Source: Thalassotalea sp. HSM 43 | GTDB lineage: Bacteria; Pseudomonadota; Gammaproteobacteria; Enterobacterales; Alteromonadaceae | Length of the DNA: 64,000 bases | Assembly (NCBI RefSeq): GCF_004752005.1 | Contig: NZ_CP038493.1 | Span: forward strand, 1,450,302-1,514,301 | Reading direction: 5' to 3' | In this document: one piece after another, positions 4,394 through 64,000 of the stretch | How the letters are laid out: the number at the start of each line of letters is the position of its first letter | How positions within the stretch are numbered: the stretch's first letter is position 1 | Notes under the pieces: generated by a model | Told to the model about the DNA's origin: nothing | Seen by the model: only the letters and a program-made list of their open reading frames with translations | The model's database searches: none | Program-made: the position numbers and the translations under genes

Positions 4394-6235
4394 TTAATGC
4401 ATGTTTAAAATACTGTCTTCGCATTCAAAGTCGACCATGAATTCTGGCTCATGGGGGTACAAATCAGGATGGCGCTCATACAAATAGTCAAAGGCCTGCT
4501 TATTTTTGTATTTCAACGACGCCATTAAATTGATATGCGCATCATCGACTTGTGACCGATCAACCAACATATCGAGCAGCTGCAGGCTCGATTCCTCAGC
4601 TTGGTAATCTCGACCTTCTGATGCCTGCATCCTTGCCTTTATTTGTTGCAAATAAGCCAATAATGGATCAGGGCTTTGACTGTCTCTTTTTAGTGGCAGC
4701 CCTTGATTAATCAAATCGATAATAAGTTCGTTTTGATTCGTCCAATTACTTTTAATCAAGTTATAGATCAAGGTTCTGCCATCGGCTCCGTAAGGTGCAA
4801 GGTCTTGCGCGTGACGTTCAAGTATTTGTCGTTGCTCATCAGCTTTGTGAGACGCTATTGCTAAGAACATCGAAAAATTTGGGTCTTTAGCAAATAACTT
4901 TTCTTGTTCCATTTGTTGGACAAATTCCTTCTTCACCGAGTGGTTTGCTAACTCATACAACGCCAAATAGGCATAAGGCTTAATATCATCTGGCGCCGAC
5001 TCTATTTTCGCTTTATAACTGGCAATTTCTGACGCGGATAATAATGTCTCTCGACGACTGATATCGGTAATACTGATGTTTAAATAAGATGCGGCAAACA
5101 ACATATTGGTTTCATCAGCAAAAACGCGACATTCTTGTTGGTAAGCTTGTTGCCACAGTCCTTCACCAATTTGCGATGCATTGACCTTTTTAATCGCGAC
5201 ATCGCTCACCGGTTGATCAGCTAAGACACACAGCTCTTCGACACTGGGTTGCTTTGCAAGATCCGGGTTTTCTTGTTCCAACTCGACAAAGAGTTGTTCA
5301 ACAGTGGTATCCATCGAAAATTCTGGGGCCGTAACCACCGCTAGTTCTCTGCTCGTTGATAGCTTGTATATCTTAGCGATTTTCGCATAGGTTTGGTTCA
5401 AGCCATGAACAAAAACAGCGTCGTCACTTTCAAAAGGCAAGAACTCATCAATCGCATCAAGCATTGTATGCAGCTGCTGTTGATTCAGTATGCCAAGAAA
5501 TTCACGAATTTTATGAAACGAGGCATAGACAACCATTTTACGATATTCATAACTGCTGCCATTAAATTTATCTAAAGCAAGCGCACCAAACTCATCATTA
5601 TTTAACATCACACTTAAGAAGAAGGCGCCAAACCAATCCATCGCTTCCATTTGCGGATTTAACTGCGCTCGTCTTTCAATGTCAGAAATATATTGCTCCG
5701 CAAATTCATCTTGATCCGGGGAAACATTGGAATAAGATTGCTTAAAATATAAACCACTGTTGTTCTGTGGCTCGGTCGATAAGGTGTATTGCAGAGTATC
5801 AATTTTAGTGAGTACATCAATGTTCTCTTGGGCCGTCATGTCGATATTCATCACGCGATCAAGCCAGCGATAGGCTACATCACTATCATAACGATTAAAC
5901 AGCACGGAAAATATCGCTTCGACTTGTTCACCTTCAAGAAACAACCGCGTCGCATGCAACTCTAAAAAACGACTTTTATTACGACTAACAACTCGGTCAA
6001 AGTTTTTATAATCTGGACAGTATTTATCGCTTTTGATCTCATCAATAAGTAAAGGTTTTGCCGCTTGTGGCAACTCAGTTGACTGTGCCGCCGTAGTGAT
6101 TGGCATTTCAATTGTTGATTGTTCAACATCTTGCGACAATTGATGTGACTGTGGATTTTGATTAGTCAGATACAAAACAGTGGCAAATACGACAATGATC
6201 AGTGTCGCAAATATTGACAGTAGAGGTTTAGACAT
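4394..6235 (-). CDS. Large hypothetical protein with N-terminal membrane anchor
   Basis: Not recognised. The 613-residue product begins with a short basic segment and one hydrophobic helix (residues about 4-24), then a polar, acidic, mostly helical body. A signal anchor with the bulk in the periplasm is likely. There is no lipobox and no catalytic motif I can name. Scattered leucine/alanine-rich helical segments could form TPR-like repeats, but they are not clear. The ATG at 6235 is supported by an AAGGAA ribosome-binding site 5 nt upstream. It starts the accessory block between tRNA-Trp and tufB. Function unknown. Confidence 0.7.
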   Translation of the reverse strand: MSKPLLSIFATLIIVVFATVLYLTNQNPQSHQLSQDVEQSTIEMPITTAAQSTELPQAAKPLLIDEIKSDKYCPDYKNFDRVVSRNKSRFLELHATRLFLEGEQVEAIFSVLFNRYDSDVAYRWLDRVMNIDMTAQENIDVLTKIDTLQYTLSTEPQNNSGLYFKQSYSNVSPDQDEFAEQYISDIERRAQLNPQMEAMDWFGAFFLSVMLNNDEFGALALDKFNGSSYEYRKMVVYASFHKIREFLGILNQQQLHTMLDAIDEFLPFESDDAVFVHGLNQTYAKIAKIYKLSTSRELAVVTAPEFSMDTTVEQLFVELEQENPDLAKQPSVEELCVLADQPVSDVAIKKVNASQIGEGLWQQAYQQECRVFADETNMLFAASYLNISITDISRRETLLSASEIASYKAKIESAPDDIKPYAYLALYELANHSVKKEFVQQMEQEKLFAKDPNFSMFLAIASHKADEQRQILERHAQDLAPYGADGRTLIYNLIKSNWTNQNELIIDLINQGLPLKRDSQSPDPLLAYLQQIKARMQASEGRDYQAEESSLQLLDMLVDRSQVDDAHINLMASLKYKNKQAFDYLYERHPDLYPHEPEFMVDFECEDSILNMH

Positions 6236-6572
6236 TTCGTTCCTTGAAAGTAAATAGGCTTTAGCTATCTTAGAGTTAGCTTAAAAAGATGTAAAGTAAG
6301 CTTTGTTCTGGGTATACCTCTAGATACACAAATAGAATGTATATCCAATTTATTTAGTTAGCGGCAACACAATAGTAGAAAAACACCCCCTCACAAATAT
6401 ACAACCTTCATCCATGAAGCTATTTGCATTAGCACATCCTGTGCGTCATTGTGGCAACGACGCAAACTCCATCAGGACGAAGAGACTTTAGAGGGCTGCC
6501 TTGTGCCAAAGGAGACTAAATAATATCGGATAAAAAGCACCAAAGAACCCACACAATGCCAAAGAAAAAGCG
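6236..6572. other. Intergenic stretch without a recognisable gene
   Basis: This roughly 340-nt segment holds no convincing reading frame on either strand and no clear promoter or terminator. It separates the large hypothetical gene from the first of the two palindromic repeats around the GIY-YIG gene. Confidence 0.5.
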
Positions 6573-6604
6573 CCGTCATCCCACCGTGTTTTTGGGTGGG
6601 ATCT
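6573..6604 (+). repeat. Left palindromic repeat flanking the GIY-YIG gene
   Basis: A 32-bp sequence contains a perfect 8-bp stem, ATCCCACC (6578-6585) / GGTGGGAT (6595-6602), around a 9-nt loop. The reverse complement of 7008-7039 matches it at 31 of 32 positions. The pair forms inverted repeats around one small nuclease gene, in a REP-like style. Confidence 0.85.
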
Positions 6605-6688
6605 TTATCAGTTTTAAGGTAACTAAAAATACTCACCTTTATACTTCAGCTATAGTTTTTGTTTCAAACATTGAAAAGGACTTCAATT

Positions 6689-6976
6689 ATGAAACAGCCA
6701 GCCATATACATTCTTTCGAACGATACGAATAAAGTTATTTATGTTGGAGTAACCAGCAACCTGATACAACGAATATATCAGCATAAACAAAAGCTGGATA
6801 AAGGTTTTAGTAAACGGTACAACCTAGATAAACTGGTTTACTTCGAGATTTATGACGATATGGAAAGTGCACTCTACAGAGAGAAAAGATTAAAAAGATG
6901 GCAACGAAATTGGAAAGAACGACTTATTAGAAAAGTGAATCCTGAATGGAAAGATTTATATCAAGAATTACTATAA
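6689..6976 (+). CDS. Small GIY-YIG nuclease-like protein
   Basis: A 95-residue single-domain GIY-YIG protein. It reads AIYILSN, then VIYVGVTSNLIQRIYQHK (the YIG half and the catalytic arginine), and ALYREKRLKRW with the glutamate expected to bind metal. Family members cut or nick DNA. Stand-alone versions of this size are common in marine Gammaproteobacteria, but their role is unknown. The ATG at 6689 is chosen over an upstream TTG because of an AAAAGGA ribosome-binding site 8 nt before it. It is the only gene between two inverted palindromes (6573-6604, 7008-7039), which suggests a mobile or repeat-processing unit. Confidence 0.85.
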   Translation: MKQPAIYILSNDTNKVIYVGVTSNLIQRIYQHKQKLDKGFSKRYNLDKLVYFEIYDDMESALYREKRLKRWQRNWKERLIRKVNPEWKDLYQELL

Positions 6977-7123: not shown

Positions 7124-7173
7124 TGCTTCAAGGGGTCAGATCACTTGAAACTAATTATTTCCGCTTTGTGCCA
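7124..7173 (+). repeat. 50-bp dispersed repeat, copy 1
   Basis: These 50 bp are identical (50/50) to the reverse complement of 62623-62672, about 55 kb away. The right end overlaps a hairpin CCGCTTT / AAAGCGG (7161-7167, 7174-7180). An imperfect inverted repeat, TGGCATAAAGCA around 7108-7119 and CGCTTTGTGCCA at 7162-7173, suggests the ends of a short palindromic element. It has no coding capacity. Confidence 0.85.
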
Positions 7174-7181
7174 AAAGCGGT

Positions 7182-7717: not shown

Positions 7718-8057
7718 ATGGATGGTGGGAATGCAGATAATGCAGGAATCAAATCCCAATTGGCGACAATTATATTCTGAGATTATTTAATGCCGTTTTT
7801 AAAGAGTCACTGCTTGCATCAGGAGGTTGCGGCTTTCGCCGCAATGACGGTGCTTATTTTCGAGTAGGTTTTGGTCCCCAGTTCGGTCTGGCCCCAAAAA
7901 CAAAAAGAGCGCCGAAGCACTCTTTTTTGGCTGTATTGTACGGCTCTAACGTCGGGCCAGAGGCCCTCGTCCTCACTCACTAAAAACAGTCCAATAGGAC
8001 TGTTTTCTTAACGCGTTCGGTCATCACGGAACACCGTGAAGCTGGCCTTATAGGTAT
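7718..8057. other. Gene-free area of stacked hairpins
   Basis: No coding frame is convincing. Visible structures are a GCGGC-TTTC-GCCGC hairpin near 7830-7844, a TTTTGG / CCAAAA hairpin near 7869-7899, a terminator-like hairpin at 7902-7928 (AAAAAGAG / CTCTTTTTT), and a perfect 10-bp stem at 7983-8006 (AAAACAGTCC / GGACTGTTTT). The words after the 7902-7928 hairpin, TTTTTTGGCTGTATTGTA, recur after the true tufB terminator, which points to local duplication. Confidence 0.6.
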
Positions 8058-38815: not shown

Positions 38816-41753
38816 GTTAATCATCAGTTGTCTTTTCGCACTGGTCAGCTTTAGCAGCACTGCCGGCGAACCATTACATGCAGAAGAGCTCTATAAAAAT
38901 TCCGATCATTACAAAATTGCTATGCGCCCTGACGGTAAATACATTGTCTCTTATGACAGAGATGATGATTATGACGTGATTGAATTGATTGATCCTAACA
39001 AGGAAACCAGCAGCAAATTAATTGAAGTTGAACACAATTCAAAAACTCGTATTTCCGATTTAAATTGGATAGACAACCAAAGTATTTTTGTCTCCTTTGC
39101 CTCGCGTCGCAACGGTATTATTAAAATTGATTATAGTGACGGCAAGAGCAAAGCCAAATGGCGCTTATTAGAACCAGAGGGTAGGCTTGTTGACAGCCTG
39201 CCGAACATTGAAGGCGAGGTGTTGTTTGCCCATAAAGGCGACGCACGAAGTGATGATTTAACCGTTTATAAAATTAATATCAAAGACTTATATGCAGGTA
39301 ATTTTGATAGTAATTTTGAGTTTGTCGAGCCGTTGGACGACGCTCTATATTATCGTTACGACAGACAATTCAATGCCATGTTTTCAGCGACCTTTGATGA
39401 TGATGAAGTCATGCAATGGTATTTTAAACTTGATGATAAAGACGGCGAATGGATTGATTACAACAGCTATGAATTAGGCGAAAAGTTCACACCAGCTATT
39501 GGCTTTATCTCTGACAGTAAAATTGCGGTATTAAGCAACGAGACCACTGATTTAGTGTCGTTAGTGGAGTTTGACTTACACAGCCAAGAATTTGGCGAGG
39601 TGTTATTTCAGCATAACCGCTATGATCTCACCGATGCCGGCCTTAACCCTGACGGCTCTATCGCGTACGTCACCTACTTCTCTCATGGTTTACCGACCAA
39701 CCAGTATTTCCATTCTGAGCACATTCGTCTTAATAAATCATTGAAAAAGTCTTTTCCTGAACAGTCGGTTTCGGTGGTGCAAGCAAGTCTAGATGACAAT
39801 GCTTTATTGGTATCGGTCAGAGGCTCAGACAACCCAGGCCAGTTTTATTATTTTGATGTGAGTGCGAAAAAACTCACCTTGGTACGCAATCGCTACGAAG
39901 TGCAACAGGATGTGGTCTACGCACGGGCAAAATCCTTTGACGTTAAAATTGATGACGACACCTATATTGAAGCAATTCTTACTTTACCAACAAGTAATGA
40001 CAATGGCGTGCTAATTGTTAACCCACACGGTGGCCCGGTCGGTGTTCGTGACTATGCGGTATTTAATCGCAACAATCAGTACCTTGCCAGTCGAGGTTAC
40101 GCAGTATTAAATGTTAACTTTCGTGGCTCTTCAGGCTTTGGTAAAGAGTTTTTGCAACGCGGTAAAGAGCAGTTTGGCCAACTCATTGAGCAAGACATCT
40201 CAGCGGTTGTGAGCAAAGTGGAGCAAGAGCACAATTTTGAACGCATGTGTTCAATGGGCTCCAGTTATGGTGGTTATTCGGCAATGATGTTAGCCATCTA
40301 TCATCCAGACAAATACGAATGCGTTATCTCCAATTTCGGGATTTACGATTTACCCCATTTATTTAATGCCAGTAACTTAAAAACCCAGCCAGAATTTCAA
40401 GAAAAAGTTGCTGAAATTGTTGGTGATTTTGACGAATCATTAAAGGATGTTTCACCCATATTCTTTGCCGAAAAATTGCAAGCGCCAGTCTTGTTGATGG
40501 CCGGTGAAAAAGACACCATTGCCGACTTTGAACAAGCGAATCGCATGAAATATCGCTTAAAACAGCTCGGCAAAGATATGGAATATTTGTTCTATGCCAA
40601 TACCGGGCATGGCCACAAATATTGGAGTGGCGACCGCCACGAAATCGCTTATATCGATGACTTTATTCGCCGTAAGCTGGATTTACCTCTACCAGAGGCA
40701 TCTAAGGACAATGACGCATTGGCCTATGACAAAGTTGTCATCGCCGATGCGTTTGAGTTTGATGACAATGTTGCCAATGATGAGCACAAAGCTGCTAAAT
40801 ACTATCAACAAGCGGCGGATTTAGGACATGCCAGAGCAATGTTCAATATTGGCAGTTATTATCACCGTGGTATTGTTTATCAAGAAGACATAGAACAAGC
40901 CGTGCATTGGTACCAAAAGTCATCTGATGCCGGTCGTGCCAGCGCTTCTATTCGCCTTGGCGATATTTATCAGCAAGGCCAATATGTCGAGACAGATTAC
41001 GATAAGTCCTATCAATACTACCAACAGGCTCAACAACAAGAGACTCACTATGGCCAACTCTATATAGCGCAAGCGCAATGTTTAGGACAAGGGGTCGAGT
41101 TTGACTTTGAGCAATGTATGGCAAAATTGTTCTACCAAGATCTGCCGGAACATGAGCGCCGTTGGGTAGAGAAAAAATACCTAGGTACTCAGCGTTCGGT
41201 GATCAGCACCATCCTTTGGCAGGCTCAATTTGATGACGAGCAGCTAGCGAAAATACAACAGACGATGAAAGAAAAGTACAAATTGGACATCATCGATGTT
41301 GCTGTCGATGAAGTTGAGTCAGGTGTTTTTAAACCGGAGTATTATCGTGGCGATTACCAATACTCAAAAATCGAAGATGGCACAACACGCTTCACTGTCG
41401 AAAAAGATGTCCGTTTTGGTACCACCATAACCCTCGAAGCCAATGAAGATTTGAAGAGCAAATATAAGAGCAATACCATGCTCGTCGTGCACTGGTTACC
41501 ACCTAAAGAAATCAATGAGTATGAAAGCTTATATTTGGTCAATACCGATTTGCAAAGGCGCTTACACCTAGATAAAAAGCTGAGCAAAGAGGAACTACTA
41601 ATACCTGGTGATTGGACCTTAGAAGTAAGAAGTTTAACCGGCACCGTACTGCATACTCAGACATTTAATCTGACCGCTGATGAAGAGAGTCAAATAAACC
41701 AGCAGATAAGCAGCGACGAGAATACCGCTACAGAAAAAGTGGTGAGCGAATAA
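38805..41753 (+). CDS. Cassette 1: secreted S9-family peptidase with Sel1-like repeats
   Basis: A 982-residue exported prolyl-oligopeptidase-like enzyme. A signal peptide (MPNKLIISCLFALVSFSSTAG) precedes a beta-propeller-like region (residues about 30-400). The alpha/beta-hydrolase domain follows: HGGPVGVRD; NFRGSSGFG; nucleophile GSSYGG with serine near residue 487; AGEKDTIADFEQ; GHGHKYW. From about 660 come Sel1-like repeats (AAKYYQQAADLGHARAMFNIG; AVHWYQKSSDAGRASASIRLG), then a beta-rich C-terminal domain (residues about 830-950). The ATG at 38805 has an AAGGAG site; the longer frame from 38553 lies inside the lipoprotein gene. Substrate unknown. Confidence 0.88.
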   Translation: MPNKLIISCLFALVSFSSTAGEPLHAEELYKNSDHYKIAMRPDGKYIVSYDRDDDYDVIELIDPNKETSSKLIEVEHNSKTRISDLNWIDNQSIFVSFASRRNGIIKIDYSDGKSKAKWRLLEPEGRLVDSLPNIEGEVLFAHKGDARSDDLTVYKINIKDLYAGNFDSNFEFVEPLDDALYYRYDRQFNAMFSATFDDDEVMQWYFKLDDKDGEWIDYNSYELGEKFTPAIGFISDSKIAVLSNETTDLVSLVEFDLHSQEFGEVLFQHNRYDLTDAGLNPDGSIAYVTYFSHGLPTNQYFHSEHIRLNKSLKKSFPEQSVSVVQASLDDNALLVSVRGSDNPGQFYYFDVSAKKLTLVRNRYEVQQDVVYARAKSFDVKIDDDTYIEAILTLPTSNDNGVLIVNPHGGPVGVRDYAVFNRNNQYLASRGYAVLNVNFRGSSGFGKEFLQRGKEQFGQLIEQDISAVVSKVEQEHNFERMCSMGSSYGGYSAMMLAIYHPDKYECVISNFGIYDLPHLFNASNLKTQPEFQEKVAEIVGDFDESLKDVSPIFFAEKLQAPVLLMAGEKDTIADFEQANRMKYRLKQLGKDMEYLFYANTGHGHKYWSGDRHEIAYIDDFIRRKLDLPLPEASKDNDALAYDKVVIADAFEFDDNVANDEHKAAKYYQQAADLGHARAMFNIGSYYHRGIVYQEDIEQAVHWYQKSSDAGRASASIRLGDIYQQGQYVETDYDKSYQYYQQAQQQETHYGQLYIAQAQCLGQGVEFDFEQCMAKLFYQDLPEHERRWVEKKYLGTQRSVISTILWQAQFDDEQLAKIQQTMKEKYKLDIIDVAVDEVESGVFKPEYYRGDYQYSKIEDGTTRFTVEKDVRFGTTITLEANEDLKSKYKSNTMLVVHWLPPKEINEYESLYLVNTDLQRRLHLDKKLSKEELLIPGDWTLEVRSLTGTVLHTQTFNLTADEESQINQQISSDENTATEKVVSE

Positions 41754-42491: not shown

Positions 42492-44576
42492 ATGAAAGCA
42501 TGGATATTGGCGTTTGTGACTCTTGCATTCAGTAATAATGCGTTAGCAGGCATGCTGATTCCCGTGGACGATATTTTTCGTGATGATTCAATATTCAGTA
42601 TGAAACTTAGCCCGGATGGCAAACACGTTTTTGCATACGAAAATAATGTTCTAACAAAACGCAATTTAATGAGTGTATTCGACCCAGTCAAGGAGACCAA
42701 AACAGCAATTCACAATGATCTTGTTATCGACTACGAGTGGATAGACAACGACACGGTATACGTTGAAACAAACAGCCATAGGGGTTTTATTGAACTCGAT
42801 TTCAGTCAACAAGAGCCTGTAGGGAAATGGCAAGTTATCGGCACGTCAGGTTATGTTATCTCAGCCCTTCCTGATGTAGAGAACACCATGATTTACGTGC
42901 ATACACCAGGCAGTATTGACGAGAAACATTTAATCTACAAAATCACCGTTGAGCAACTGATGACACGAAATTTTGCGCAAGCGGAATTACTCGACAGCGG
43001 CCTCGACGACGCATTGTTATATTACTACGATAATAACAACGCCACGATAATGGCGGTGAGCGGTGACAGAAAACGCAAAGAGCTGAAGTTTTGGTATAAA
43101 AGAACCAATAAGTGGCGGCTTTTTTGGAAAACCGACCAAAACATTGAATTTATTCCTGTCGGTTTTCTGAATAGCAAAGAGTTGGCCGTTTTATCCAACA
43201 AAGACCACGATCATGTCGCACTCGTCAAGTTTGATATAAAAACTCAAACACTTGGTGACGTTATCTATAAACACCCTATGTATGATTTAGCGTCTGCGCA
43301 ATTAAACCCAATGGGGCAAGGTGTTCATTCTGTCACATATTTAGAGCATGGAATCGCCAAGACTGAATACTTCTCCACTGACGACATCACCCTCAATGAG
43401 CGTCTTAATAAAAACTTCGACAAGCAACACGTATCGATTATTGGCGAAAGCTTAGATAAGAAAACCAAACTATTGGCGACGTCTGGCTCTGATAACCCAG
43501 GCCAATATTTTTATTTGCCCGCAGAGCAAGGACAGGCGAAAAAAATTGCCGCACGCTTTCCAAGCATGGACTTGTTTAACTTGAACCCATCAAAAACCTT
43601 CAAAGTAGAAGTTGAAAAAGACACCTTCGTTGAAGCGATATTTACCCAACCACAAGATTACGACAATAAGGTTTTGTTAGTGTATCCGCACGGCGGTCCA
43701 GTAGGTGTTCGTGATATCGCCACCTTCAATCGTGACGTGCAGTTTTTAACCAATCGTGGCTACAGTGTTCTGCAAGTAAACTTCCGTGGTTCCGCAGGCT
43801 TTGGTAAAAAGTTTACCGAGGCTGGTAAAGGTCAATTTGGTAAATTAATCGAACATGATATCAGCTTGGCAGTAGAACAAATCAGACAGCAATATCAGTT
43901 TGATCATATGTGTTCAATTGGCAGTAGTTATGGTGGCTATTCAGCGGTTATGTTGGCCATTAAAAAACCCGAACAATATCAATGTATCGTGTCAATGTAC
44001 GGCATCTATGACTTGATGCACTTATTTAATGCCAGCAATTATAAAACCACACAACAATTTCGTGACATGGTCAGCGAAGTGGTTGGAGACTTCAATGATG
44101 ATTTACAAGCTGTATCACCATTTTACTTCGCTGAAAAAGTACAAGCACCGATCCTACTCATTGCCGGTAAAAAAGACGAAATAGCCGATTTTGAGCAAGC
44201 TAATCGCATGAAATACCGACTGAAACAATTAAACAAAGATGTGGAAACAGTGTTCTATAACGATGTTGCTCACGGCCATCACAATTGGCATGGTGACAGA
44301 CATCAGTTTGCCTACATAGATAACTTTATACGGCGCAAATTAAACCTGCCATACGCAACTGGCGCAAACGCGAGCATGCTAGAATCTCAGGAACGAAATA
44401 TCTTATTAAAAGGTTACAATCTAGACGATGATAGCAACGCATTTCGACAACGATTCGACGCTCAATTCGACGACGATCTAGATGCGCAAATTAAGGCCTT
44501 AGAAGAGCAGGATCGAATCGATGCTGAACGAGAAGCACAAGCCCAGAAAGAGATTCAAGAATTACTCAATCGATAG
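42492..44576 (+). CDS. Cassette 2: secreted S9-family peptidase
   Basis: A 694-residue exported S9 peptidase, paralogous to cassette 1 across the propeller and catalytic domain but without Sel1 repeats. It has a signal peptide (MKAWILAFVTLAFSNNALAG) and HGGPVGVRDIATFNRD, then NFRGSAGFGKKF. The nucleophile GSSYGG puts the serine near residue 479, and the acid lies in AGKKDEIADFEQANRMKYRL, with AHGHHNWHGDRH carrying the histidine. The C-terminus is a short charged coiled tail rich in Glu, Gln and Ala. Substrate unknown. Confidence 0.9.
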   Translation: MKAWILAFVTLAFSNNALAGMLIPVDDIFRDDSIFSMKLSPDGKHVFAYENNVLTKRNLMSVFDPVKETKTAIHNDLVIDYEWIDNDTVYVETNSHRGFIELDFSQQEPVGKWQVIGTSGYVISALPDVENTMIYVHTPGSIDEKHLIYKITVEQLMTRNFAQAELLDSGLDDALLYYYDNNNATIMAVSGDRKRKELKFWYKRTNKWRLFWKTDQNIEFIPVGFLNSKELAVLSNKDHDHVALVKFDIKTQTLGDVIYKHPMYDLASAQLNPMGQGVHSVTYLEHGIAKTEYFSTDDITLNERLNKNFDKQHVSIIGESLDKKTKLLATSGSDNPGQYFYLPAEQGQAKKIAARFPSMDLFNLNPSKTFKVEVEKDTFVEAIFTQPQDYDNKVLLVYPHGGPVGVRDIATFNRDVQFLTNRGYSVLQVNFRGSAGFGKKFTEAGKGQFGKLIEHDISLAVEQIRQQYQFDHMCSIGSSYGGYSAVMLAIKKPEQYQCIVSMYGIYDLMHLFNASNYKTTQQFRDMVSEVVGDFNDDLQAVSPFYFAEKVQAPILLIAGKKDEIADFEQANRMKYRLKQLNKDVETVFYNDVAHGHHNWHGDRHQFAYIDNFIRRKLNLPYATGANASMLESQERNILLKGYNLDDDSNAFRQRFDAQFDDDLDAQIKALEEQDRIDAEREAQAQKEIQELLNR

Positions 44577-58399: not shown

Positions 58400-59305
58400 A
58401 TGCAAGCAGCAAACGAAACCAAAAAAGGTGTGATAAACGCCTTATGCGCCTACACCCTTTGGGGTATAGCGCCTATTTATTTCAAACTATTATCTATGGT
58501 ACCTGCCATGGAAATTTTGGTGCACCGAATCGTTTGGTCATTTGTGTTATTGGTCGCTATTGTCCTGCTCATGGGCAATTGGTCTAAAGTCAGAGCGATT
58601 TATCGAGATCGTAAAAAGCTCGCTTGGCTTTTTTTCACCAGTCTTATTTTAGCGGCCAATTGGTTGTTGTTTATTTGGGCGGTGAATAACGACTACATAC
58701 TAGAAGCCAGTCTGGGCTACTATATCAACCCACTATTTAGCGTTGCCTTGGCCATGCTGTTTCTCGGCGAGCGACTCAGCCGATGGCAGCTAGTTGCGGT
58801 CGCATTGGCCATGGTTGGTGTATTGATTCAACTGATCAGTTTAGGCAGCGTACCTTATGTTGCTCTCGGTTTAGCCACATCGTTTGGTGTTTACGGCTTA
58901 TTGCGCAAAAAAATGCCGGTTGATTCCTTACCAGGGTTATTAATAGAATCGTTCTGGATGTTACCGCTGGGTCTATTGTATTGGGCATTTTTTGCCGAAT
59001 CAGCGACGTCCAATATGATGCTCAATGACATGTCGTTAAACGTCACCCTTATCGCCGCTGGCTTGGTAACAACAGCACCCTTGCTGTTTTTTACCGCCGC
59101 AGCCAAACGCTTGCCATTAACCACCATGGGCTTTTTCCAATACGTCGGCCCGAGTATCATGTTCGTATTGGCAATCACTGTCTATAACGAGCAACTCATT
59201 TTCGAGAAAATGCTAACCTTCGCGTTTATCTGGAGCGCCTTGGTAATCTATAGCATCGACTCATTAAAAAAACGCCGTCAACGCAAGCGTCAAGCCAACA
59301 GTTAA
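58400..59305 (+). CDS. rarD: EamA-family transporter RarD
   Basis: A 301-residue inner-membrane protein with ten hydrophobic helices, in the two-repeat EamA/DMT layout. The N-terminus reads KGVINALCAYTLWGIAPIYFKLLS, and GFFQYVGPSIMFVLAIT lies late, as in RarD. It was first described as a chloramphenicol-sensitivity gene; the transported substrate is unknown. The last 142 bp (from 59164) are duplicated at 62673-62814. The intact copy ends QANS, the fragment QAHS. Confidence 0.93.
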   Translation: MQAANETKKGVINALCAYTLWGIAPIYFKLLSMVPAMEILVHRIVWSFVLLVAIVLLMGNWSKVRAIYRDRKKLAWLFFTSLILAANWLLFIWAVNNDYILEASLGYYINPLFSVALAMLFLGERLSRWQLVAVALAMVGVLIQLISLGSVPYVALGLATSFGVYGLLRKKMPVDSLPGLLIESFWMLPLGLLYWAFFAESATSNMMLNDMSLNVTLIAAGLVTTAPLLFFTAAAKRLPLTTMGFFQYVGPSIMFVLAITVYNEQLIFEKMLTFAFIWSALVIYSIDSLKKRRQRKRQANS

Positions 59306-59425
59306 GGTGACACACGGTTAGGTCATACCCTGTGTTATCTAGCTCATTCAATCGCATATCGGTACGCCGAGTTAACGATTTAATGTCTTTATTCTGGCAT
59401 AAAAAACGCTCCTGTTTAAAGGAGC
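59164..59425 (+). repeat. rarD-end duplication, copy A
   Basis: 262 bp covering the last part of rarD and its downstream terminator region. It is 97-98% identical (6 differences, no gaps) to 62673-62934. In this copy the terminator is damaged: GGAGC is followed by CGATTACC instead of a T run. It forms the left border of the inserted segment. Confidence 0.93.
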
Positions 59426-59634
59426 CGATTACCTAACATGAATGAATATTCATTAGAGTATTAGTTACGAAGGCGGAAAACTTCCGCTTAGAGCGAATTT
59501 CGGCCGTACACACTTTCTATAAAGCTATCAGAAAGAAATTGACCGCTAAAGTTATCCGGTTAGTCAAATGTACGATTAGTAGTTTTTTCTACTTCCCCCT
59601 TGTAAGTAGATACAACTGGCACCAAATAGATGTT
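59426..59634. other. Left junction of the inserted segment
   Basis: No gene is seen. It contains a perfect 14-bp palindrome AATGAATATTCATT (59441-59454) 16 nt past the duplication edge, a hairpin GCGGAA / TTCCGC (59473-59487) and a 12-nt word AAAACTTCCGCT (59477-59488) that recurs at 62564-62575 near the right end. Confidence 0.5.
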
Positions 59635-59979
59635 ATGTCAAAAACAAATTTGAAATACCTGTGGTTAATTCTCCTGTCAGTCGTATGGCTAGCAGGTGCT
59701 TTTCCGTCTATTGAAAAGTCATCAACCACTCATTCAGTTTCTTACGCAGAAGTTTCTGAGTCGACTGAAACCAGTGTTTTTGATATCAAACAAAATCCAA
59801 CTCTATACATTTATCCAACTCATTTATTCTGGCTTTCTTTACTGATAGACAACTTTTTTGATAATTCTGACTATCAAATTCCACCTTGGCCAGAACAAAG
59901 TCTATTTAGTACATTTATTAAAATCATCTCCTATCAACAAAACATAGCTTCGCTTCGCCTTATTTTCTTTATCAATTAA
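59635..59979 (+). CDS. Small hypothetical membrane or exported protein
   Basis: Not recognised. From the ATG at 59635 the product has 114 residues: an N-terminal hydrophobic segment (YLWLILLSVVWLAGAF) followed by a Ser/Thr-rich polar stretch, a second hydrophobic segment (PTHLFWLSLLIDNFF) and a hydrophobic end (LRLIFFIN). The ribosome-binding site is poor and the frame start upstream would add 32 residues. It directly precedes another small membrane protein. Both lie in the insert next to rarD. Confidence 0.5.
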   Translation: MSKTNLKYLWLILLSVVWLAGAFPSIEKSSTTHSVSYAEVSESTETSVFDIKQNPTLYIYPTHLFWLSLLIDNFFDNSDYQIPPWPEQSLFSTFIKIISYQQNIASLRLIFFIN

Positions 59980-60027
59980 TTGTTTCTCCCAGCACTTCTG
60001 CTGGCCACACTTATTGGAAGGAAAATA

Positions 60028-60276
60028 ATGGAACTTTCTTTTAACGCTTATTCGCAAATATTTATTTGGTTAGGTTTTTTATTTCTCGTTTATCTTTTTC
60101 GAGTTTTTTATAAATTAGCCAAGAAACAGAAAGGTGTTGCATTAGCGGCAGGCTTGTTTTTACAAATGTTCTTACCTGACCCAAAAGTACAACACACTAT
60201 TGAATTTATCGCTGAGAAAAAAGAAACATCAGGGAAAGCTCAATCTGACAAAAGATCAAAAACAGAAGGCGACTAA
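60028..60276 (+). CDS. Small hypothetical membrane protein
   Basis: Not recognised. The 82-residue product starts at the ATG at 60028, backed by a strong GGAAGGA site. It has one clear transmembrane helix (IFIWLGFLFLVYLFRVFYKL), a second weak hydrophobic stretch (VALAAGLFLQMFL) and a charged Lys/Ser/Glu tail. It follows the preceding small gene by 48 nt and is probably co-transcribed. Function unknown. Confidence 0.65.
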   Translation: MELSFNAYSQIFIWLGFLFLVYLFRVFYKLAKKQKGVALAAGLFLQMFLPDPKVQHTIEFIAEKKETSGKAQSDKRSKTEGD

Positions 60277-60383
60277 CCCCTCAAAAGTCACCTTGTTCAC
60301 CCCAGAAAACATCAATTATATCTCTAGCCTACTGACGCCTAAGATAACGGGCCGCAGTGCAAGTCTAGCCCTTGGTAATCACA

Positions 60384-62138
60384 CTAATTCAAACCATTAG
60401 CAGTAGCGCTGAGCATAGTATCCTCTTTGGATAATACTGATCCGCTTATTTGGATCTCAGCATGCTTCCATGCGGCCTCAAATCGACGTTCCACACTCTT
60501 TGCTTCTTCAGTTTTACCTTGCAAAATTAACGCTTCTGAAAGTCCGCGAAGGGCCCAGCCATTTTCTACCATTATCTCTAGGTCTCGTTGATAGGTTGCC
60601 TCCGCGGCGGCAAATTCACCGGCATCAATTTGTGCAGCACCCAATGCATGTCTCACCGGAAAGTACCACTCTGGTGGTTCCGTATAGGGCAACGAATCTT
60701 CCATCTCTACAGCTGTCTTGTATACGGATATTGCAGTTTGCAGATCCCCTGCGTTTTCAGCAATCGAGGCTGTTAACACCGTCTCAGCAATTTCCAAAAG
60801 AATTGGTGCACCCTCGCGATTAAAAAAACGAAGTGTTTGAATGTCCGGCATACTTCGCAGGTCAGCTAATTTTGCTAGTTCTTGTTTTGCCATTACTTTA
60901 TCATTCATCCCAACAAACGCTTGTCCTCTTGCGTAGTGCCAAATTCCGCGAGCGTAAAGTAAATCCTCTGCGGGTTCAACTGTGTCGAGGATCCCTTGCC
61001 AATCAGCAAATCTAACTTTTGCATACAATGGCTGCGAATAATAATGTTGTGCTACCGCCATGCCTGGGGCACGAAGCAATTCTTCAGTTAAAGCAGCGGC
61101 TGTGCCATCAGCTAATTCATAGGCTTTGCTTTTCCAACCACTAATGGCGGCTGTAACCCAACCAAAGTGCCAATTGTGCGGAATGTAACCAGCGAGATAT
61201 ATTGGACTATTCGATCTACAATTCTGAATAAACTCATCATCTGCTGCTGTAGCCAACATGTTATTCAAAGTCGCGTCATGGTAACGCCCTACTCTCATAT
61301 ATATATGAGCAGGCATATGAACTAGATGCCCAGCTGCTGGGGCAAGTTTTGCGAGCGTATCTGCATAGGGTTCTGCACGCTCTGGGCTTGTCGATTGCTC
61401 CACCGCATGAATATATAAGTGAATCGCGCCAATATGATTTTTATCCAGCGCTAAAGCAGTTTCTATTGTATCGGTAATTTCTTTGGTCCAAGGTCGTGTT
61501 ATACCTTCTGCATCCCAATAATCCCAAGGGTGTACATCCATCATCGACTCGGCTGCAAGCGCAGCAATATGGGCATCTTTCGGAAAGGCGTTCATTACTG
61601 AGCGCATGCCATCTGCGTATGCTTCATTGAGTGAGTTTCTATCGTCCGGCTCTACTTCTAAATAGCGTAGCTGCAGCGCTTCGATGAGCATTTTTTCCTT
61701 GGCACTCACGTTTGCACTCAGTTCTTTAGCCTTTTTAGCCAAAGCAAAAGCGCCAGGAGCATTGGAGGCTGCCATATCAGCATTCACATTTGGCCCTAAT
61801 ACTAACGCACTGCCCCAATAACACATGGCACATTCTGGGTCGTAGATAGATGCTTCGTTGAACGCAAAATCAGCTGCTGCGTGATTAAACGCATAAGATA
61901 ATGCAAGTCCTTGATTAAAATACTGTTGTGAAACCGGAGATTTGGTTGTAATCGGAAAGTTCACATCACCTAAACCACTAAACAATGGTTGACGCCAATT
62001 GTCTTCAGCAAGTTCTAAATCTGTTTTCTTTTCTGCAACGTTTTCAATACCATTGCTGTCAACACTACTATCACAGCCGACCAACACAATTAGCGCGAAA
62101 AACGCCAGTTTCAATCGGAATTCAAATAATATTCGCAT
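60384..62138 (-). CDS. TPR-rich lipoprotein
   Basis: A 584-residue lipoprotein: signal ALIVLVGCDSS with the lipid cysteine near residue 22, then a long tetratricopeptide region. Repeats visible include FNQGLALSYAFNHAAADFAFNEASIYDPECAMCYWGSALVLG and, near the end, AGEFAAAEATYQRDLEIMVENGWALRGLSEAL. The CAMC pair in the first repeat is a recurrent feature of this type. Histidine-rich segments in the middle (HMPAHIYMRVGRYHDA) could bind metal. The ATG at 62138 has an AAAGGAC site. It lies inside the inserted segment. Confidence 0.85.
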   Translation of the reverse strand: MRILFEFRLKLAFFALIVLVGCDSSVDSNGIENVAEKKTDLELAEDNWRQPLFSGLGDVNFPITTKSPVSQQYFNQGLALSYAFNHAAADFAFNEASIYDPECAMCYWGSALVLGPNVNADMAASNAPGAFALAKKAKELSANVSAKEKMLIEALQLRYLEVEPDDRNSLNEAYADGMRSVMNAFPKDAHIAALAAESMMDVHPWDYWDAEGITRPWTKEITDTIETALALDKNHIGAIHLYIHAVEQSTSPERAEPYADTLAKLAPAAGHLVHMPAHIYMRVGRYHDATLNNMLATAADDEFIQNCRSNSPIYLAGYIPHNWHFGWVTAAISGWKSKAYELADGTAAALTEELLRAPGMAVAQHYYSQPLYAKVRFADWQGILDTVEPAEDLLYARGIWHYARGQAFVGMNDKVMAKQELAKLADLRSMPDIQTLRFFNREGAPILLEIAETVLTASIAENAGDLQTAISVYKTAVEMEDSLPYTEPPEWYFPVRHALGAAQIDAGEFAAAEATYQRDLEIMVENGWALRGLSEALILQGKTEEAKSVERRFEAAWKHAEIQISGSVLSKEDTMLSATANGLN

Positions 62139-62521
62139 AATTTTAGTCCTTTTATATTTGAGTCATCTTTCGCATCAAGCTGCTAACATTTGCGAATCCA
62201 TAACTCGCTTACTTAGTCGAAATGTTATGAATACAATCGGAATTATTGCCCCACCCCAACTGTTCAATTATTGACCAGACATCTATTAATGTAAATATTA
62301 ATGACTCTAAACTTCATTGGGTACCTAACAATTTAATAGTGCGCGATTTGCGCATTTTCCTGAATATAGGGGAAACTTGTTTCAGTTGTATGTTTGTACA
62401 GTTTCTATTGAAAATAATTATTTGAAATGTAAATTCTTGGTTTTAAGGGGACTATCGATACTTCTCAGTAACATGACTCGAATAATTTAGTAGAAAATAT
62501 ATGGGAAAAAATTTTAAATTA
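62139..62521. other. AT-rich gene-free stretch
   Basis: About 380 nt without a convincing gene on either strand. It is noticeably AT-rich compared with the surrounding genes, consistent with acquired DNA. It contains the promoter side of the TPR lipoprotein. Confidence 0.5.
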
Positions 62522-62639
62522 ATTTCCGCTTTGCGTATAGACAAGTAATAAAAACGAAATAGTAAAACTTCCGCTATCGTATCATTGCTGTCTTAATCGC
62601 TAAGTCTCTCAAGGTCTGCTTCTGGCACAAAGCGGAAAT
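62522..62639. repeat. Short element with 12-bp inverted ends
   Basis: ATTTCCGCTTTG (62522-62533) and its exact complement CAAAGCGGAAAT (62628-62639) bound a 118-bp segment. The right end overlaps the 50-bp dispersed repeat. No coding capacity. Confidence 0.55.
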
Positions 62640-62672
62640 AATTAGTTTCAAGTGATCTGACCCCTTGAAGCA
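62623..62672 (-). repeat. 50-bp dispersed repeat, copy 2
   Basis: Exact inverted copy of 7124-7173 (50/50). It abuts rarD-duplication copy B directly: the repeat ends at 62672 and the duplication begins at 62673. Confidence 0.92.
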
Positions 62673-62934
62673 CGTATTGGCAATCACCGTCTATAACGAG
62701 CAACTCATTTTCGAGAAAATGCTAACCTTCGCGTTTATCTGGAGCGCCTTGGTAATCTATAGCATCGACTCATTAAAAAAACGCCGTCAACGCAAGCGTC
62801 AAGCCCACAGTTAAGGTGACACACGGTTAGGTCATACCCTGTGTTATCTAGCTCATTCAATCGCATATCGGTACGCTGAGTTAGCGATTTAATGTATTTA
62901 TTCTGGCATAAAAAAAGCTCCTGTTTAAAGGAGC
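62673..62934 (+). pseudogene. rarD-end duplication, copy B (gene fragment)
   Basis: The last 47 codons of rarD without a start, plus downstream sequence, 97-98% identical to 59164-59425. It keeps an intact terminator (62912-62939), so it looks like the original rarD 3' end, now cut off from its gene. Confidence 0.92.
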
Positions 62935-62939
62935 TTTTT
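62912..62939. terminator. Bidirectional terminator next to the S8 peptidase gene
   Basis: A perfect 10-bp stem, AAAAAGCTCC / GGAGCTTTTT, has an 8-nt loop. It serves the minus-strand peptidase and presumably once served rarD. Confidence 0.92.
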
Positions 62940-62958: not shown

Positions 62959-64000
62959 CTAGTGAGGTGAGACAACACGGCCAGCACCGTGAACGTCATC
63001 ATTGCCTGGCTTACCAAGATCGTCCGCTAAACGACGCATTTCTTTCTCAACGTCATTTGGCGACATATCACCACCATTTGCACTGATGATAAGAGCTGCA
63101 ACACCAGCGGCGTGAGGCGATGCCATTGACGTACCGACAGACCAGTACCATGAACCATTACCGCCGGTGCTAAACACGAAGTCAAACACATAACAAGGAC
63201 GGGTAATAAAACCAACAGTACAATCATCAAAACCACCTGGCATAAACGCACTGCTGTAATCGCCGCCTGGAGCAGAGAAATCAACCAATGATTGACCATA
63301 GTTGGTGTAAATCGCTTTGTGATCCAAGTTGGTGTATGAATCCATTGCCCACATCATAGGGCCTGTTGCCGAGATGCTTAATACCGCAGGAAGCTCTGCC
63401 GGTAGTGCAATCAACGAGTCAGCATGGTCATAATCAACACCATCATTACCCGCGGCAGCAATTAAGATAACACCGTTGTTACGAGCGTATTTTGCCGCTT
63501 TGCCGTATGCGTTCTTAAATTGGGCAATACCGTCTTTACCACCTGGTGCAAAACGGATGTCATCACTGATGTCTTCTGGCGTGCCTTCAACATCGTAATA
63601 ACCATTTTTACGGATACTCAAACCCAAACTCATGTTAATAACATCAACATCGTTTTGCGCTGCGTAAACCATTGCCGCCATGGTGCCATAACTGTCACCT
63701 GAGCCAGTGTATGCTGATAATACTTTTAAAATCACCAATTCAGCTTCCGGTGCAACACCTATGGTACCAAAACCATTATCAGCGGCAGCGATCGTACCTG
63801 CAACGTGGGTACCGTGGTTACCGACTTCACCGGCGTAATCAAACCAGTCTTCATCGGCAATAAATGAACGGCTAAGGCTGTAATTGATATTCGGTGATAA
63901 ATCTGGGTGAGACGCGTCAGCGCCAGAATCTAGAACCGCAACTCGTACGCCTTGACCTCGGTGACCCGCTGCCCAAGCTTGTTGAGCCGACACCGCATCA
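62959..64000 (-). CDS. S8 family (subtilisin-like) serine peptidase (partial, 5' end outside window)
   Basis: The visible 347 codons contain a subtilisin catalytic triad: aspartate in VAVLDSGADASHPDL, histidine in NHGTHVAGTIA and serine in GTSMASPHAAGVAAL. The oxyanion asparagine lies in AAAGNDGVDY. A disulfide is possible between the cysteines in FDDCTVGFITRPCYV. The frame is open to the right edge (the first residues before SAQQAW continue past 64000), so the signal and propeptide lie outside. It is probably a secreted protease. It ends at the terminator at 62912-62939. Confidence 0.92.
   Translation of the reverse strand, partial: DAVSAQQAWAAGHRGQGVRVAVLDSGADASHPDLSPNINYSLSRSFIADEDWFDYAGEVGNHGTHVAGTIAAADNGFGTIGVAPEAELVILKVLSAYTGSGDSYGTMAAMVYAAQNDVDVINMSLGLSIRKNGYYDVEGTPEDISDDIRFAPGGKDGIAQFKNAYGKAAKYARNNGVILIAAAGNDGVDYDHADSLIALPAELPAVLSISATGPMMWAMDSYTNLDHKAIYTNYGQSLVDFSAPGGDYSSAFMPGGFDDCTVGFITRPCYVFDFVFSTGGNGSWYWSVGTSMASPHAAGVAALIISANGGDMSPNDVEKEMRRLADDLGKPGNDDVHGAGRVVSPH

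Follow-up and report, generated by a model that had tools for sequence, protein, structure and literature searches.

Structure of the rarD locus

The 64,000-nucleotide stretch of the Thalassotalea sp. HSM 43 genome analyzed here (the window) carries toward its end an intact EamA transporter gene, rarD (58400–59305, plus strand; Pfam EamA, E = 2.5e-19), followed on the opposite strand by an S8 (subtilase) peptidase gene (62959–63999, minus strand) that leaves the window and encodes 466 amino acids in the genome. The 3′ end of rarD is present twice. Copy A (59164–59425, plus strand) comprises the end of the intact gene and downstream sequence up to a terminator stem lacking the plus-strand T run, copy B (62673–62934, plus strand) is a displaced 3′ end with a whole terminator hairpin, and the two are separated by an insert of 3,247 bp (59426–62672). 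Alignment of the copies gave a direct repeat of 262 bp with 97.7% identity and 6 mismatches (E about 1e-125), in agreement with the first-pass annotation. The first base of copy B is the third base of rarD codon 255, and the copy holds the final 142 bases through the stop codon and 120 bases beyond it. The mismatches (copy A positions 59179, 59297, 59368, 59375, 59387 and 59407) are distributed as two in the 142 coding bases and four in the 120 noncoding bases; examined for polarity, they did not distinguish which copy is foreign. Since the copies differ, an assembly artefact arising from identical repeats is unlikely. No third match to the repeat (E ≤ 0.001) was found in the 4.01-Mb single-contig genome. 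A further direct repeat in the window (39928–40675 and 43591–44338; 67% identity over 756 bp) perhaps represents paralogous genes.

Folding confirmed the earlier statement that the plus-strand terminator is whole at copy B and broken at copy A. The copy B terminator stretch folds to −19.0 kcal/mol on the plus strand and −17.4 kcal/mol on the minus strand, and its hairpin was not listed by a simple terminator pattern scan because the T run is paired within the stem. At copy A a 6-bp stem is left (−10.5 kcal/mol), and the plus-strand T run is replaced by insert DNA. The pattern scan does list a minus-strand terminator site at copy A (59425–59408), so this copy may still stop transcription coming from the other side. 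Tail B probably serves only the S8 side, as a terminator. Two Rfam hits on the copy B terminator fell far under their gathering scores and were taken as chance.

Gene content of the insert

The DNA between the copies is AT-rich (29–36% G+C vs 43% for the window) and, as had been described from the sequence alone, contains two small genes and a TPR gene. The two small genes, orfA (59635–59979, plus strand; 114 amino acids, no Pfam match) and orfB (60028–60276, plus strand; 82 amino acids), encode proteins that appear by eye to be membrane-spanning. The TPR gene (60384–62138, minus strand) encodes a 584-amino acid protein whose start resembles that of a lipoprotein. Neither the ORF list nor Pfam and NCBIfam analysis of the three genes revealed an integrase or transposase in the insert, which also contains no tRNA.

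Relatives of these genes lie in other genera. The orfA product is 59% identical to that of an ORF in G491, a genome of a different genus in which the orfA-orfB module is 80% identical at the DNA level over 691 bp. Among 294 other genomes of the family, 38 have a match to orfB; none of 14 genus relatives does. The TPR protein is 86% identical to one encoded in G023, of another genus, where the gene adjoins tRNA-Phe and has neither orfA nor orfB beside it; the remaining matches among 96 relatives reached at most 43% identity. Since the rarD of G023 is only 55% identical to that of the present genome, the TPR gene has very probably been exchanged horizontally. Separately, in the G023 locus (L066, 7650–8000), the tRNA-Phe 3′ end and its terminator are repeated close behind, beside the TPR gene.

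A short stretch between the TPR gene and the right border (62323–62402, minus strand) resembles an integron attI site and P_int promoter, with a GTTAGGT core on the minus strand. It matches a Pseudoalteromonas xiamenensis plasmid (81% over 70 bp and 85% over 41 bp) at DNA that sits before an integron integrase fragment (TIGR02249, E = 3.9e-29, 102 bits, under the family cut-off). In a plasmid search with a limit of E = 1, pieces of the stretch were 80–90% identical in seven Alteromonadales plasmid records (E from 3e-8 for the best to 0.4 for the weakest). Six of these seven records were opened, and in four the match lies at most 25 bases from the leading gene in a row of small genes oriented away from it. 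The motif TATTAAATTG^TTA is common to the insert and the plasmid stretches at this place, which we read as a likely attI position, attI being annotated in none of the records. The region also bears what we take to be a resemblance to a LexA box. Set beside an integron platform, the stretch resembles DNA that precedes rows of small genes in Alteromonadales plasmids, and the insert has no intI (by the ORF list and by reading the three forward frames of 62139–62680) and no clear attC, none being recognized by eye behind the TPR gene.

The modules of the insert have different relatives: orfA-orfB in G491, the TPR gene in G023, and the attI-like stretch in plasmids of Pseudoalteromonas, Paraglaciecola and Glaciecola. 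The insert is a composite in which genes occurring in other genera are combined with a fragment resembling part of an integron. For the insert in its entirety, an origin in a plasmid or phage was considered and rejected, with a single 69-bp plasmid match (E = 1e-5) and no phage matches.

The right border and its repeat family

The insert ends on the right in a terminus whose fold comprises a hairpin and, after it, a REP-like palindrome (62614–62672, plus strand). The last 50 bp (62623–62672) occur in six exact genome copies that share an identical last base and then run into different DNA: the insert itself, positions 7124–7178 of the window (minus strand), and genome positions 251240, 1435477, 1554949 and 2610426. 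At the first of these genome positions (L110), the 22 bases after the terminus repeat the REP. With as many as 3 mismatches allowed, the 42-base terminus core was absent from all 394 other genomes of the family, which leaves the present genome as the only one of 395 to have it, and an exact scan for the terminus in a named genome collection, which perhaps leaves out near relatives, returned no match. Six copies with one last base, and a core found in no other genome of those scanned, make copy B look, most simply, like a rarD tail beside a landed repeat end.

The small ORFs upstream of the termini differ (218, 116 and 202 amino acids, and a GIY-YIG gene at L108 and L109). The GIY-YIG unit of 590 bp is 97.6% identical at its two sites and ends at the same terminus base, so something ending at this base has moved or been copied within the genome. 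The second terminus copy in the window lies behind the 116-amino acid ORF downstream of a tuf gene, in a unit running from 7124–7178 to about 7577 (minus strand) with a left hairpin, the ORF and the terminus; the ORF has a weak DUF6559 match below the cut-off. At the other tuf gene (L109), a GIY-YIG unit occupies the matching place.

The REP palindrome is not confined to the termini. Of 15 further loci opened (L111–L125), 11 carry it as inverted pairs, and at L113 it flanks a Y1 transposase ORF on both sides (5992–6738, minus strand; Pfam Y1_Tnp, E = 2.3e-16; NCBIfam REP_Tyr_transpos, E = 3e-17, 62.9 bits, below the cut-off of 80), with two REPs at or inside the 3′ end of that ORF. The inverted doublet is not the unit at the termini, where a single REP is present at five and a tandem two at L110. 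As with REP/REPIN sequences and REP-associated tyrosine transposases (PMC3116915; PMC8266576), the palindrome family flanks a Y1 transposase and forms inverted pairs. The termini differ from such elements in that they combine a single REP with another hairpin, end cargo-bearing DNA and are identical at six places, and in that no GTAG tag was seen by eye beside the palindrome.

The layout of an ORF followed by a hairpin, together with two full IntI genes in the genome, raised the idea that the six units are integron cassettes. This was rejected because the termini are, by eye, unlike the attC-like sites of both of the genome's own arrays. The two integron integrases (G000:C1:1935566-1936513 and 2757889-2758830) score above the family cut-off and are accompanied by cassette-like arrays in which ORFs are seemingly repeated (2757274/2756888 and 2753880/2753446), one ORF seemingly being common to both arrays. 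A search of the literature on hairpin-bounded cassettes and passenger-carrying REP transposases, in which few subscription journals were represented, returned no cargo units with such a terminus.

The left border

The left border of the insert breaks the plus-strand terminator at copy A and has no recognizable terminus. A left-end hairpin of the AATGTCTGGTTAGAGCGATAAGCGGACATT type is present at L106, L107, L109 (shortened) and L110 and in G011, whereas the best candidate in the insert was not significant (score 10 against a null 95% value of 10, and 19 for the L106 control). No significant copy of insert positions 59433–60276 was found elsewhere in the genome. A stricter pattern for a palindrome of the AATGTCTGGTTAGAGCGATAAGCGGACATT type matched in 6 of 369 class genomes and not in the present genome; those in the class genomes are apparently other dispersed palindromes. 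Dispersed palindromes of the type AATGTCCGCTT...AAGCGGACATT were noted in G107, G140, G190, G259, G368 and G420, with 11 forward and 12 reverse matches in G107 and none in its control.

Gene-end duplications elsewhere in the genome

A second gene-end duplication was found at one of the other terminus sites (L108, G000:C1:1548000-1562000). There, a 149-bp repeat that includes a terminator (6158–6305 and 7799–7947; 88% identity) lies at the 3′ end of a gene of 674 amino acids and again 1.6 kb away at the end of a facing gene, and 32 bp of the 674-amino acid gene's end lie near the displaced copy. The GIY-YIG unit with the 50-bp terminus sits between both repeat copies, the terminus being about 630 bp from the displaced one. 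This second duplication is taken to be older than that of rarD. No empty site could be read at this locus because no homologue of the facing gene (580 amino acids) was found behind the 674-amino acid gene in 14 genus relatives, two of which offered stretches of less than 4.5 kb.

At the remaining four of the five other terminus sites (L106, L107, L109 and L110) no gene-end duplication was found when the 1.5 kb behind each terminus was compared with the roughly 7 kb preceding it. By eye, the tuf terminator is present in duplicate at L109. A 400-kb sample of the genome showed no gene-end duplication of this layout; like the scan that yielded the L108 repeat, it covered direct repeats of at least 60 bp lying within 9 kb. 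The sole repeat at a gene end in the sample, at L168, consisted of 56-bp units in tandem following a single gene, and its other repeats lay within genes, were tandem, or adjoined the end of no ORF of at least 100 amino acids.

The rarD locus in related genomes

A rarD match (E ≤ 0.001), in some cases weak, was obtained in 89 of 96 relatives, the nearest of which is 76% identical. The rarD stretches of 19 relatives contain no TPR gene, orfA or orfB, and the earlier claims that an insert arrived here and that the rarD end is doubled are supported. The same 19 stretches contain no S8 homologue (E ≤ 1e-8), and in G014 and G005 the neighbor of rarD is homologous to a gene located, in the present genome, beyond the S8 and aconitase-X genes. 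The adjacency of rarD to S8 is therefore not shown to be old, and the ancestral order of rarD, terminator and S8 peptidase proposed at first pass was not confirmed.

Doubled rarD ends were sought at 60 rarD loci, namely that of the present genome and those of 59 of the 89 relatives with a match; four of the relatives had less than 7 kb downstream, and for G003 only the rarD end was available. A doubled rarD end was found at two, the present locus and that of G027, with different borders and contents. The G027 duplication (L048, 4256–4601 and 8762–9105) comprises about 250 identical bases beginning 72 bases before the stop codon, sits in a region named by eye as Rhs-like, and runs into a repeat that resembles an IS21-type end and has a third copy close by. 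G027 belongs to another genus, and its duplication was judged to be apparently independent. By hand calculation, the chance that one random gene-end duplication among about 300 genes in the stretches of the relatives hits one of 19 rarD genes is about 6%.

Origin of the insert

The insert looks like the product of a recombination accident and not like a self-moving element. The explanation that fits best, and to which we would give roughly even chances, is that a mosaic insert was acquired through one homologous exchange and one illegitimate junction, with the duplication as a by-product. In a first step, which is strongly indicated, a sequence ending in the 50-bp terminus would have landed in some copy of rarD between ATGTT and CGTATT, severing the final 142 bases of the gene, stop codon included, and copy B would be the resulting tail. 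In a second step, DNA consisting of insert, terminus and rarD tail would have entered a cell with an intact rarD, by transformation or some other route. A homologous exchange in the rarD tail, combined with an illegitimate junction just behind the terminator stem, possibly by end-joining into a circle and a subsequent single crossover, would then have produced the order rarD, tail, insert, tail, leaving rarD intact and the terminator broken at A and whole at B. Counting against this explanation, neither a donor nor an empty site of the species was seen in the family genomes or the named genome collection scanned, and the L108 duplication could point to another mechanism.

Events of this kind have been described for insertion-duplication, or homology-facilitated illegitimate recombination, in E. 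coli. Of 60 clones obtained there with DNA from which illegitimate events at lacZ were expected, 56 showed a partial lacZ duplication by PCR (PMC3240628). The 14 duplications sequenced there span 109–950 bp, and three of four illegitimate joints lacked homology. The authors (PMC3240628) favor degradation followed by re-circularization, giving a circle that lacks part of the homology, and then a single crossover. In those clones as at the present locus, foreign DNA lies between two direct copies of part of the recipient gene with which it shares homology, and the 262 bp found here fall within the range given there (PMC3240628). The length of the tail, the position of the junction at the terminator and the 2.3% divergence all fit. 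The present case differs in being a natural event, its history read back from a single genome, and in having a right border that is the end of a repeat family. The repeat, the foreign relatives of the genes, the exact terminus on the right and the lack of a recombinase gene are direct findings; the donor rarD with its landed terminus, the circle or one-sided exchange, the illegitimate junction and the route of entry are inferred.

A rather unlikely alternative is a duplication within the lineage, in which the rarD end was first doubled in tandem and a mobile sequence bearing the terminus then either inserted itself or deleted neighboring sequence as far as codon 255 in the second copy. Element-adjacent deletions begin exactly at element ends, and one here would produce the exact right border. 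However, this route requires more steps, leaves the position of the left border in the terminator unexplained, and calls on a doubling found among the 60 loci only here and in G027.

Somewhat further from what we would expect, and decidedly doubtful, is movement of the insert as a one-ended unit, with the hairpin-REP terminus fixed at the right and a variable left end that sometimes copies a neighboring gene end, moved by the REP-associated transposase of the genome. Consistent with it are the six termini with one fixed last base behind different ORFs, the occurrence of the same GIY-YIG gene at two of them, the location of two of the six termini within gene-end duplications, the doubled tuf terminator (by eye) beside another, and the Y1 transposase gene flanked by these REPs on either side. 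The L108 duplication is the main evidence here; it could mean a shared mechanism rather than two accidents. However, four of the five other terminus copies have no gene-end duplication, copy B of L108 starts about 630 bp from its terminus, and the terminus may have spread alone. To our knowledge, no REP transposase moves one-ended units that copy gene ends. The broader proposal, that the six termini mark new non-autonomous cargo units with one fixed and one open end, moved by a REP transposase and carrying or copying the neighboring 3′ end and terminator so that the target gene stays whole, has a slim chance of being correct.

Some integrative elements at gene 3′ ends bring replacement ends, and the first-pass annotation proposed entry of this kind, which here would require a site-specific recombinase acting on rarD. 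The locus shares the layout of such elements, with a whole gene upstream, cargo in the middle, and a displaced tail with its terminator downstream. The proposal is nonetheless improbable, as the insert has neither a recombinase gene nor a tRNA, rarD is not a recurrent target (no doubled end in the examined stretch of 58 of the 60 loci), and its one precise border consists of a terminus that also closes five other sequences, each at a site other than rarD, four of these sites being free of gene-end duplication. The duplication that had been offered in passing as a second possibility is closer to the evidence. A very long target-site duplication of about 262 bp made by the insertion itself fits the geometry but is highly improbable, no such repeat being present at L106, L107, L109 or L110.

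Acquisition of a mosaic insert with a by-product duplication, the favored reading, is a known kind of event; its border here is unusual and well marked. By this route a core gene can gain a foreign neighbor without loss, at the cost of a duplicated tail and with no need of an integrase, and the doubling of a gene end does not by itself prove that an integrative element was involved. Should cargo turn out to be carried by the terminus family, REP-type repeats would contribute to gene gain as well as to their own spread. The exact right junction also exposes a small repeat family of this genome.
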